Assembly (NCBI GenBank): GCA_009786775.1
Contig: WQRL01000110.1
Span: 1 to 6,351, forward strand
DNA length: 6,351 bases
Reading direction: 5' to 3'
Source: Oscillospiraceae bacterium
GTDB lineage: Bacteria; Bacillota; Clostridia; Oscillospirales; Oscillospiraceae
The position numbers were made by a program, and so were the translations under genes. The notes under the pieces are model-generated. The model saw only the letters and a program-made list of their open reading frames with translations, was not told the DNA's origin and did not search any database. This document shows positions 3,321-6,351 of this stretch, one piece after another (within the stretch, counting starts at the first letter, position 1; each line of letters starts with the position of its first letter).

Positions 3321-4721
3321 ATGAAAACAATGAGGAGTTTTCTTGTTGTGATGATATTGACATTAATGTTAATTAGTGGGTGCAGTGAAATCACGGTGCA
3401 AAATAGCGGGCAGCGTGAAAATACAAGTCAAATAGGGAGTAGTGCTGAAACTGAAGGGGCTGAAATTCGGTCTTCGCCAAGCATTCCAACTCCGTTTGTT
3501 GTGCAGAATGTTGGCGACTTAATTGGATTTCTGAGCGCAATTAATGCTCAGGAGCCCCTTTCTGAAACTCAAATGTTTAGTGAAAATGGGGTTGATGAAT
3601 TTTACTCTGCTTTCTTAACAGAAAGCAACAGAATGGCATATGATTTCCATAATATTGCGTATTTGACTGAGTTTTATTCAATTAATGTTGAGATTGAAGG
3701 ATTTGAACTAACTGAACTTCATATAGATAGGCATAATGTCGCTTATATCTTTCGTTGCAATGACGTGAGAGAGTGGGGAGAAAGAGTTTCAATTGCCTTG
3801 CGAAGGCATCGTGGTGATGGATTTACCCCTGATGAAGTTTGGCAAATTATATCTGAACAAGCACTGCGTTCCGGTGGAGTTGTTACCGAACTCGGTATGC
3901 TGTATAACTCGAATCTAAATGAAATGCTTTCTCGAATAGGGGACACTTATCTTATCATCCGCGTCCCCGATAGGCTAAACAGCTACGAATTTCTCCGCGA
4001 CCTTGCTCTTGAGGTGATTGCAACGTCGGAATTGATTGTGTTAGAGGATATCTTGGCCGAGCCGGTTGTTCCTGGCGTGGAGGTTAACCCGCCTGAATTG
4101 ACGCTGTGCCGAGATTTCAACCACACGTCTGGAAGTGCAGAGGTTGCAGCACACGTTCCGTCGCCACTCCGTATACAGAACCCCGGTAATTTGATTGATT
4201 TTAGAAATGAAATAATCACTCGGCTTACACAAAGCGAGGCTGTTGGGCTTAGTGGCACCGAAGCGGCAAGCAGCATGATGGCATTCGAAGCTAATGATAT
4301 TGTGCCCTTGAGCGAGATATACTTCGTTACAGTTGAAATTGACGGCTTTGAACTACGTGAAATCGAAGTCAGTAAGTCCAGTGTTCGTTATTCTTTTCGC
4401 TGTATTGAGGTACGGGACTGGGGGGATGAAATTCTAATCGCGATACAAAGGCCTAGCCGTTATTATAGCCCTGGTGAAGTTTGGCAGATAGTGACCGAGC
4501 AGCTTACACGGGAAGGCAGAGGCCGCACAACTGACGATGGTATGATATACGAATCGGATATAAGTAGAATTAGTGCTATGATGGGAGATACAAGGATTAT
4601 CATAAGAGTCCCCGATAGGCTAAACAGCTACGAATTTCTCCGCGACCTTGCTCTTGAGGTAATAGCAACGTCAGAACTTATTGTGTTAGATGATATCTTG
4701 GCCGAGCCAATTAGAGATTAA
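3321..4721 (+). CDS. Surface lipoprotein with two fused modules (B and C), C-terminally truncated
   Basis: GAGGAGG at 3307-3313 lies seven bases before the ATG. The signal peptide ends LISGC, with Cys21 the lipidation site. The 466-residue precursor has a Ser/Thr/Glu-rich linker (~22-57), module B (~58-247) and module C (~282-462), with conserved FRC cysteines at 146 and 361. Residues 248-272 between them (PVVPGVEVNPPELTLCRD) match the beginning of the Big2 domain of the upstream lipoprotein, then run straight into the lead-in of another module, so the gene looks like a fusion of two tandem copies. The protein ends PIRD because, compared with the upstream gene, 11 bases are missing after GCCGAGCC (4701-4708), shifting the frame into TAA. 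It therefore lacks the Big2 and B-repeat-like domains. The frame is otherwise intact, so it is probably expressed; whether this end is functional or a decay product is open. Confidence 0.88.
   Translation: MKTMRSFLVVMILTLMLISGCSEITVQNSGQRENTSQIGSSAETEGAEIRSSPSIPTPFVVQNVGDLIGFLSAINAQEPLSETQMFSENGVDEFYSAFLTESNRMAYDFHNIAYLTEFYSINVEIEGFELTELHIDRHNVAYIFRCNDVREWGERVSIALRRHRGDGFTPDEVWQIISEQALRSGGVVTELGMLYNSNLNEMLSRIGDTYLIIRVPDRLNSYEFLRDLALEVIATSELIVLEDILAEPVVPGVEVNPPELTLCRDFNHTSGSAEVAAHVPSPLRIQNPGNLIDFRNEIITRLTQSEAVGLSGTEAASSMMAFEANDIVPLSEIYFVTVEIDGFELREIEVSKSSVRYSFRCIEVRDWGDEILIAIQRPSRYYSPGEVWQIVTEQLTREGRGRTTDDGMIYESDISRISAMMGDTRIIIRVPDRLNSYEFLRDLALEVIATSELIVLDDILAEPIRD
3492..4061 (+). repeat. Lipoprotein module copy B
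   Basis: About 190 residues (58-247 of the second lipoprotein). It is the most diverged of the three in its first half (PFVVQNVGDLIGF versus RNEI in A and C) but keeps FRC, EWGE, TPDEVWQIISEQ, IGDT and YEFLRDLALEVIATSEL. Bases 3963-4015 are identical to 4608-4660 in copy C over 53 positions. Confidence 0.85.
4164..4706 (+). repeat. Lipoprotein module copy C
   Basis: About 181 residues (282-462 of the second lipoprotein). It is closer to copy A than copy B is: NPGNLIDFRNEIITRL, RDWGDEI, AIQRPSR, SPGEVWQI, GMIY, MMGDTRIII. Its last 77 bases (4632-4708) differ from copy A by a single base, and its 4608-4660 segment is identical to copy B, so this end of the module has been homogenised. Confidence 0.85.
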
Positions 4722-4777
4722 CCCATCTGAATTGACGCTGCGCCGAGGGTGGCCATAACAAGTGCGGCAGCCTCTTT
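4709..4777 (+). pseudogene. Remnant of Big2 coding start and terminator half, after truncation
   Basis: From 4712 to 4748 the sequence follows the upstream lipoprotein gene at 1754-1790 (TAGAGATTAACCC...GCTGCGCCGAGG) with one base change. GCCATAAC at 4752-4759 matches 1796-1803. The next bases, AAGTGCGGCAGCC (4760-4772), match 2466-2478, the right arm of the hairpin after the first lipoprotein gene. Roughly 660 bases that separate these two parts in the upstream copy are missing here. The stop codon of the second lipoprotein (4719-4721) lies inside the remnant. Without a left arm this is probably no longer a working terminator. Confidence 0.8.
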
Positions 4778-5192: not shown

Positions 5193-5201
5193 ATTATATC
5201 A
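5193..5201 (-). promoter_or_regulatory. Extended -10 promoter for the SH3-like gene
   Basis: Read on the - strand the bases are TGATATAAT: a consensus TATAAT preceded by the TG of an extended -10. Transcription should begin near 5186, giving a leader of about 35 bases before the ATG at 5151. No good -35 box lies 16-18 bases upstream, which extended -10 promoters tolerate. Position and match are good; activity is inferred. Confidence 0.5.
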
Positions 5202-5243
5202 CACAATTGCAAGCGGCGGTACACAAAGTCTGCTTATAGACCA

Positions 5244-5389
5244 GTCGGACACGGGTGCTGCTCTGTGGGAAAGTGGGGTGGCCGCAGTCCTGGAACACAA
5301 GTTTCATCCAGGATTCCAAGTTTTCGCCAGGGTAGACGTGACTGACGGAGGCCGCCACGCTTTTTCACAGAGTAGCACCCGTGTCCGAC
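5244..5389 (+). repeat. Long imperfect inverted repeat (40-base arms, 66-base centre)
   Basis: The outer 16 bases of each arm (5244-5259 and 5374-5389) are perfectly complementary. The next 24 pair with only G-U changes and one mismatch. No direct repeat resembling a target-site duplication flanks the arms, which argues against a simple MITE or insertion element. Confidence 0.9.
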
Positions 5390-5510
5390 GGATGGCTTTA
5401 GACATCAGGCTATCCTTTGGCATATGATCCAGAAAGTCAGTTATGACTTCAGGTTTGCAGCATATTGACCCAAAACTGCAAAACTGGTGAAACTCTGAAT
5501 TTTAGCACGC

Positions 5511-5536
5511 AGTGCGGTTATAACCGCACTATTTTT
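5511..5536 (+). terminator. Intrinsic terminator
   Basis: A perfect 20-base palindrome (5511-5530, arms AGTGCGGTTA/TAACCGCACT) is followed by ATTTTTA. The stem is 8 pairs with a TATA loop, or up to 10. The T run is on the + side only; the other side reads GCGTGCTAAAATT, a poor tail for the convergent ABC gene. As no + strand protein gene precedes it closely, it most simply ends the candidate RNA. Confidence 0.75.
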
Positions 5537-5637
5537 AGTGAGGGGCTCTTCTCTTCATTCGCCGCCCTTTCTGTGCAAAACTCTAAACCACGAAACTCAG
5601 TTCCCGGCAGTATAATTTCTATATAGCCATAGCCGAG

Positions 5638-6351
5638 CTAGTCAGGTGAGGTCAGGACGATTCTGCCTTCGCTGTCCATGTGGATGTGGAGCCTGTTGTT
5701 CTTGAGATCCATCTTGTCGAGAAGTTCCCTTGGAATTTGTACCCTGCCGGCCCTGTCGAGCACTGCAAGCTCCAGTTGCTCACCGTGGGAAAAGCCTTCC
5801 AGGCCTGCGAGTTTGGTGGCGTAGCCATGGTTCATAATAAATTCGCTGGAGGTCTTTCCATCGCGGATGGCCACTACCCTTTCTACTTTTTTGGAAATAT
5901 CCCTGTCGTGGGTGACTATTATTATGGTCGTGCCCAGCTCCTTATTGACCCTGCGGAACATGTCCATTATGGCATCGGTGGTGCCGCTGTCCACGCTGCC
6001 TGTCGGCTCATCGGCAAGCAGGATGGTGGGATTGTTGGCCAGGGACAGTGCGATGGCCACCCTCTGCTGCTCTCCGCCCGAGAGCTGACCCAAGCGGTGC
6101 TGTGCGCGCTTGTCCATGTCCATAAGGGCAAGCAGATCCATGGCTCTTTCCTTCTTATTTTGCATCAGGCTATCAGTATTAAACTGCATGGGCATCATTA
6201 CATTTTCCACTGCTGAGAGATAGGGGATGAGGTTGCGGGCGTTATTTTGCCAGACGAAGCCTACGGTTTGCTTCTTGTAGTCCACAAGATCCTTCTCGCT
6301 GAGCTTAAATAAATCCTTCCCATCGACGGTGAGTTTTCCCGCCGAAGGCTT
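5638..6351 (-). CDS. ABC exporter ATPase (MacB/LolD type) with fused AbrB-like domain, N-terminus outside window
   Basis: The frame is open to the window edge; 237 residues are visible, starting at KPSAGKLTVDGKDL, which in this family follows the Walker A loop, so about 45 N-terminal residues lie outside. Visible motifs in order: Q-loop (VGFVWQNN, ~31-37), signature LSGGEQQRV (~90), Walker B ILLADEP (~110), D-loop GSVD and the switch His in VTHD (~148). The protein hydrolyses ATP to drive a MacB/FtsX-like permease; the permease gene is not in view. After the ATPase domain, residues ~193-234 (LDRAGRVQIPRELLDKM ... EGRIVL) match the AbrB/SpoVT swapped-hairpin fold. In AbrB this binds DNA; in an ABC ATPase it may instead serve dimerisation or regulation. 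No clear terminator follows the TAG at 5638-5640. Confidence 0.9.
   Translation of the reverse strand, partial: KPSAGKLTVDGKDLFKLSEKDLVDYKKQTVGFVWQNNARNLIPYLSAVENVMMPMQFNTDSLMQNKKERAMDLLALMDMDKRAQHRLGQLSGGEQQRVAIALSLANNPTILLADEPTGSVDSGTTDAIMDMFRRVNKELGTTIIIVTHDRDISKKVERVVAIRDGKTSSEFIMNHGYATKLAGLEGFSHGEQLELAVLDRAGRVQIPRELLDKMDLKNNRLHIHMDSEGRIVLTSPD

Follow-up and report, generated by a model that had tools for sequence, protein, structure and literature searches.

The locus and its hairpin

In the window, i.e., the whole stretch of 6,351 nucleotides of the Oscillospiraceae bacterium contig WQRL01000110.1 that was analysed, Pfam returned no reverse transcriptase among six of the encoded proteins. 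Its lipoprotein-like genes, for which no Pfam match was obtained, share a 188-base repeat (1612-1799, 3936-4123, and 4581-4768; 84% and 68% identical). The original prediction for this DNA was a single structured RNA of the + strand that spans 5228-5536, ends in a terminator of its own, and acts in trans or represents a new RNA class. The long hairpin on which it was based was recovered: the left arm (5244-5283) pairs with the right arm (5350-5389) at 39 of the 40 stem positions, as had been counted before, through 34 Watson-Crick and five G-U pairs, with no A-C pair and one mismatch. When the arms are aligned further outward, seven G-U and no A-C wobbles are found, which bears out the claim that all seven wobbles are G-U on the + strand. 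Between the arms lie, on the same strand, the 5' half of a conserved core (GCAGTCCTGGAACACAA; 5284-5300), a variable apical loop (5301-5334), and the 3' half of the core (GACGTGACTGACG; 5335-5347). Small hairpins that are private to this locus follow at 5406-5500 (+ strand), and inspection of the sequence confirmed the predicted T-tailed, terminator-like hairpin (5511-5536, + strand), of which the hairpin itself occupies 5511-5530 and the T run reaches 5536. For 5200-5560, the predicted + strand fold has -158.3 kcal/mol (z = -8.35; none of 100 shuffled sequences being as good), and the - strand reaches z = -6.08, so that the hairpin is strong on both strands.

Rfam gave no match above gathering score at the site of the window hairpin, in agreement with the original reading, which could not match it to RNase P, tmRNA, SRP, 6S, a retron RNA, or a familiar riboswitch, nor at the repeats of five further loci (L114, L115, L112, L108, and L084); a known Rfam RNA was therefore rejected. 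Screening of the window with ARAGORN for tRNA and tmRNA gave no hit, and an integron attC site was set aside by inspection.

A dispersed repeat and its relatives

Comparison of 5200-5560 with its own genome (G000) gave at least 40 further long matches (the best 40 of 105 candidates being scored), and the matches listed outside the window copy all fell within query positions 35-206, corresponding to 5234-5405 of the window (+ strand). This indicates that the hairpins at 5406-5500 and the terminator-like hairpin, both outside all listed matches, are not part of the repeat, and 5228-5536 did not hold as a single unit, the part beyond 5405 being private to the locus. A single-copy RNA gene with its own terminator was rejected as well, since no scored match extends past 5405 and terminators are no commoner next to the copies than in control settings (see below). 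A search of the own genome gave 101 hits in 111 fetched sequences, of which 81 were near full length, and the genome contains roughly 90 copies, dispersed over many contigs. A covariance model (R1) was built from 44 aligned copies (alignment A1; 44 rows from 50 aligned hits, with two identical copies on contig C104 and four partial or weak hits left out). It matched the window copy at 5233-5405 with 191 bits and the own genome at least 140 times (among the best 150 of 533 candidates), some of these matches being reverse-strand echoes. The unit is about 165-215 bp long and no long gene was found within it; hence, the repeat is short, dispersed, multi-copy, and without an internal transposase gene, as are miniature inverted-repeat transposable elements (MITEs). 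Tandem or truncated neighbouring copies, some of them cut at the apical motif, were seen at L035 (7220-7356), L046 (1-320), L076 (834-1143), L278, and L308, and the right-end sequence CGGATGGTTT is tandemly repeated in several copies. No family of neighbouring genes (ORFs of at least 100 amino acids) recurred beside more than two other copies.

By blastn, no match was found in 39 other genomes, nor in plasmid and phage collections; exact core patterns had no match in viral contigs, and the own-genome core pattern had none in genome contigs. R1 matched the congeners G010, G001, and G004, in which the stem sequences differ and the apex is alike (CAG, then G-ACACAA-n-UUUUG, CAAGUUU, then GU + GUG, then CUG). 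A second model (R2) was built from 30 of the best R1 matches of G010, G001, and G004 (14, 13, and 3, respectively; alignment A4). Although it contains no rows from the own genome, R2 recovered this genome (E 3.1e-11), including the window copy (5237-5401; E 4.5e-6). At E <= 0.01, R2 matched six of the 19 genus genomes, namely the own genome and five of its 18 congeners, with at least 72 matches in G000, 149 in G001, 75 in G010, 19 in G004, six in G013, and four in G005 (echoes included; at most the 150 best candidates considered); the relative in G005 (best E 0.002) is doubtful. Among 120 genomes of the family, searched with strict filters on the best 24 candidates per genome and with three genus members included, only the own genome matched, and it was also the sole match among 39 genomes of the order (best 74 candidates scored). 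The window protein encoded at 5638-6351 is 67-76% identical to proteins of seven Defluviitaleaceae MAGs, which we take to be of termite-gut origin, and the host is therefore likely to be placed close to these MAGs; R2 found the repeat in none of these seven, in a search that had no positive control.

The positions of the copies are mostly different between species. A comparison of 88 copies of G000, 33 of G010, and 46 of G001 yielded only a few pairs with two flanking genes in common (one between G000 and G010, six between G000 and G001, and two between G001 and G010). Given these few common positions, part of the copy set could be inherited in place. One copy has identical flanking genes in three species (L256, L321, and L282), and this locus represents either an ancestral copy or a site that was hit repeatedly.

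Ends, target duplications, and an IS66-type element

The ends of the repeat are well preserved in G001, where copies bounded by GTAACTGTT...AACAGTAAC have 8-base direct repeats just outside in 39 of 45 cases (control 3.7%; at least seven of nine bases, small shifts allowed). End identity to the consensus is 0.89 and 0.88 in this species, and with their ends and duplications kept the G001 copies look young. In G004, two of three copies have an 8-base duplication, of which one is perfect and the other agrees at seven bases or more; in G010, a duplication was found for one of 33 copies (control 3.9%). All duplication tests refer to copies chosen by the core motif. In the own genome, the consensus ends of 64 copies read GTTACAGTTCACAG...TGTGAGTTGTAAC, and they have decayed in most copies: at a threshold of 10 of 14 bases, the left end is kept in 18 and the right end in 12 of 79 copies (controls 0.8% and 3.0%, respectively), and the two ends of a copy do not pair beyond the shuffled level (0.444 versus 0.426). 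With fixed boundaries, none of 61 own-genome copies had a duplication; among those keeping both ends (nine of 14 bases), three of 13 had one of 8 bases, with none in the control. Terminal inverted repeats, which characterise MITEs, are thus present in the family, and target-site duplications occur in G001, in G004, and in three of the 13 two-ended own-genome copies. In the window copy the inverted repeats are unrecognisable; judged from the consensus, the left one (GTTACAGTTCACAG in the family) is expected at 5225-5238 (+ strand), and the decayed right end should lie near the start of 5406-5500. As part of the explanation favoured below, the window copy is proposed to be an old one that has lost its recognisable ends.

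The repeat ends GTTAC[A/T]GTTCA match, over 11 bases, those of an IS66-type insertion sequence of G001, in which inverted ends (GTTACTGTTCACTCCC; 15 of 16 bases) enclose a gene with the IS66 transposase domain (PF03050). This one copy of the element has no duplication of its own; a DUF6788 gene lies just 5' of its transposase gene (L345, 302-622 and 612-2300). A search for the exact ends with one mismatch found none in G000, G005, and G013, and single ends in G004 and G010. IS66 transposase matches were obtained in G001, G010, and G005, and none in G000 (69% complete), G004, and G013; neither IS66 nor Y1 transposase genes track with the repeat among the congeners.

Among known systems, MITEs are the nearest kind, followed by BOX and REP repeats. 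A literature search that covered few subscription journals found no paper on this repeat family. Like the MITEs described in the accessible text on MITEAba12 of Acinetobacter (PMC6382973) and in that of a review (PMC10969869), the repeat is short, non-coding, and dispersed, has a stable predicted fold and terminal inverted repeats that in G001 resemble, over 11 bases, those of a resident insertion sequence, and shows target duplications that fade with age. According to that same text, however, MITEAba12 is best conserved at its ends (PMC6382973), whereas in the own genome the ends of the present repeat are least and its apex most conserved; furthermore, its stem covaries and its fold favours one strand. 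Similarly, the 8-bp direct repeats, the inverted ends, and, in G001, a PF03050 gene between matching ends agree with the IS66 family, whose elements make 8-bp direct repeats as far as the consulted portions of two sources describe them (PMC11946415, PMC3281130). Yet the IS66 ends described there begin with GTAAGCG, those of the repeat start with GTTAC or GTAAC, and no long gene was found in the repeat.

The folded strand and its possible role

The covariation that had been suggested as a check of the long stem, which measures 40-50 bp in the family, is strong. In A1, 26 of 47 pairs have changed on both sides, and in A4, 24 of 36; none of 500 shuffles was as high for either alignment, and both exceeded all slid controls, a comparison that is tilted in their favour in that each structure had been obtained from the alignment on which it was scored. 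The inner helix GCAC/GTGC is invariant in A4, and three of 50 G001 copies have GCGC/GCGC instead, a paired double change. Where copies differ by at least 8%, two-sided changes occur at 2.2 to 8.7 times the frequency that independence predicts; the counts are 8 of 183 and 7 of 93 between copies 4-8% apart, and none of 21 between the closest copies (less than 4% apart).

Furthermore, the fold favours one strand. The argument from the wobbles of the window hairpin extends to the whole family, with G-U to A-C counts of 389:59 in the own genome (88 copies), 90:13 in G010 (33 copies), and 129:77 in G001 (46 copies). Copies with more G-U than A-C outnumber the reverse by 79 to 2, 28 to 2, and 32 to 4, respectively. 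These counts concern motif-chosen copies (88 of 101, 33 of 35, and 46 of 51 hits), and many of the G-U and A-C cells are common by descent.

Conservation along the unit is uneven. Over up to 87 own-genome copies (of the 101 hits, taken without a motif filter, 12 run off contigs and two identical ones were left out), the two ends have mean identities to the consensus of only 0.541 and 0.456, and three stem pieces have 0.776-0.851. The core is far better kept, with 0.949 for its 5' half (52 of 87 copies unchanged) and 0.994 for its 3' half (83 of 86 unchanged, one further copy being without it). The detection of copies by hairpin similarity biases these values somewhat towards a conserved hairpin over conserved ends. 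In a set of 64 main-subfamily copies, selected by score and contig room from the 88 of 101 hits with the exact core motif, flank identity is 0.34 and that of the loop between the core halves 0.77 (0.767). We take this pattern to mean that hairpin and core stayed under selection once the copies could no longer move. The covarying stem, the one-strand G-U excess, and the decay of the ends around a kept core together indicate that selection on the folded strand, be it RNA or single-stranded DNA, probably goes beyond what transposition requires.

Taken as a whole, the repeat is likely a non-autonomous, MITE-like transposon that is moved by an IS66-type transposase and whose + strand is predicted to act as a folded single strand. 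The transposase would have moved the repeats in trans, and some factor would recognise hairpin and core on the + strand, in the form of either RNA or single-stranded DNA. Since the core outlives the ends, this recognition may serve something besides further jumping. Several observations speak against this explanation: the lack of an IS66 transposase match in G000, G004, and G013, the shortness of the common end, its difference from the IS66 ends described, the missing duplication at the G001 insertion sequence, the duplication counts of G010 and of G000 at fixed boundaries, and the lack of two-sided changes among the closest copies. A more far-reaching version, in which the transposon carries a working folded module, is put forward tentatively and is rather less than probable: its copies would fossilise as transposons, yet selection would preserve every one of them as a hairpin specific to one strand, whether of RNA or of single-stranded DNA, the stem being renewed by compensatory change around a fixed core.

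Palindrome correction and gene conversion are both known in bacteria, and an ordinary MITE could owe its pattern to them without any selection on the fold, the former keeping the arms of a copy alike and the latter keeping the copies alike. Both processes give two-sided changes without function, and such changes are indeed independent of gene context here. This explanation is nevertheless unlikely, as it gives no excess of G-U over A-C on one strand, which is seen in three species, and would not spare the loop, the most variable inner stretch (0.77), between core halves of 0.95 and 0.99; homogenisation does not readily account for a loop that varies while the core around it stays fixed.

The genomic setting of the copies bears on what the folded strand may be. 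The gaps that hold a copy are divergent, co-directional, or convergent in 29, 26, and 8 cases in G000, in 1, 10, and 18 cases in G010, and in 12, 25, and 3 cases in G001; as these orientations vary by species, no single promoter or terminator role fits. The copies of G010 (L275-L304) lie mostly between convergent genes, opposite to the other two species, and are without target duplication. Terminator-like sites were found 3' of four of 74 copies, compared with six, three, and two of 74 in three control settings, and sigma-70-like promoters reading into the repeat at eight of 148 sides, which is the level of shuffled flanks (5.2, counted for outward promoters). Whether a copy is divergent, convergent, sense, or antisense makes no difference to its pairing or its G-U excess. 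With structure independent of context and neither promoters nor terminators enriched, RNA at every copy is not favoured, and single-stranded DNA is possible.

These data also weigh on a free-standing, trans-acting structured RNA that is ended by the terminator at 5536 and has the other copies as paralogous genes. The strand-specific fold, the covariation, the conserved core, and the + strand terminator at the window locus would all suit such an RNA. However, the repeat unit ends at 5405 and leaves the terminator outside, roughly 90 copies are dispersed over the genome, terminators 3' of the copies and inward promoters are not enriched, copies in divergent gaps have a structure just as intact as the others, and the duplications show insertion; this part of the original prediction is therefore improbable. 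Its suggestion of a new RNA class may survive in part: Rfam has no family for it, and the G-U excess and the covariation agree with it, although any such RNA would be carried by a transposable element.

Finally, the repeat could be a REPIN-like element that a Y1 (HUH) transposase moves in the form of a folded single strand. This would account for a hairpin of one strand that pairs alike in every context, and Y1 genes occur in eight of 19 congeners (seven over the cut-off), including G001 and G010. It is very improbable, as the own genome (69% complete) has no Y1 match, the ends match an IS66-type element, and G001 and G004 have 8-base duplications, which Y1 insertion is not known to make.

The remaining likenesses are of description. 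In the available text of PMC3049150, the pneumococcal BOX, RUP, and SPRITE repeats are, like the present one, dispersed families for which extensive RNA folds are predicted; neither "compensatory" nor "covariation" appears as a word in that text. REP and REPIN elements with their RAYT (PMC3116915, PMC3733652, PMC8266576) are likewise extragenic palindromes of high copy number and species-specific; REPs are, however, 20-40 bp long, whereas the present repeat has ends like those of IS66 and duplications of 8 bases, and its own genome gave no Y1 match.

The copies also hold a clue to where the transposon inserts. For outward sigma-70-like promoters, nine of 15 detected -35 boxes in G001 are 37-42 bp away from the edge of the repeat and 17 of 41 in G000 are 31-42 bp away, and no distance peak was found in G010. 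The pattern looks as though the repeat inserted preferentially a short way upstream of promoters, and this spacing suggests an insertion rule.

Small repeats of bacteria are usually read as parasites, with their structure being incidental. The present family is young in one species and seemingly old in others, in which the ends are gone while fold and core are kept. It thereby offers a natural series for the role of the folded strand after jumping is lost, and for the choice between RNA and single-stranded DNA. If the copies are indeed maintained as working folded modules, the family would parallel, in bacteria, the SINEs that have been exapted in other organisms, and a genome would contain roughly a hundred functional hairpins.
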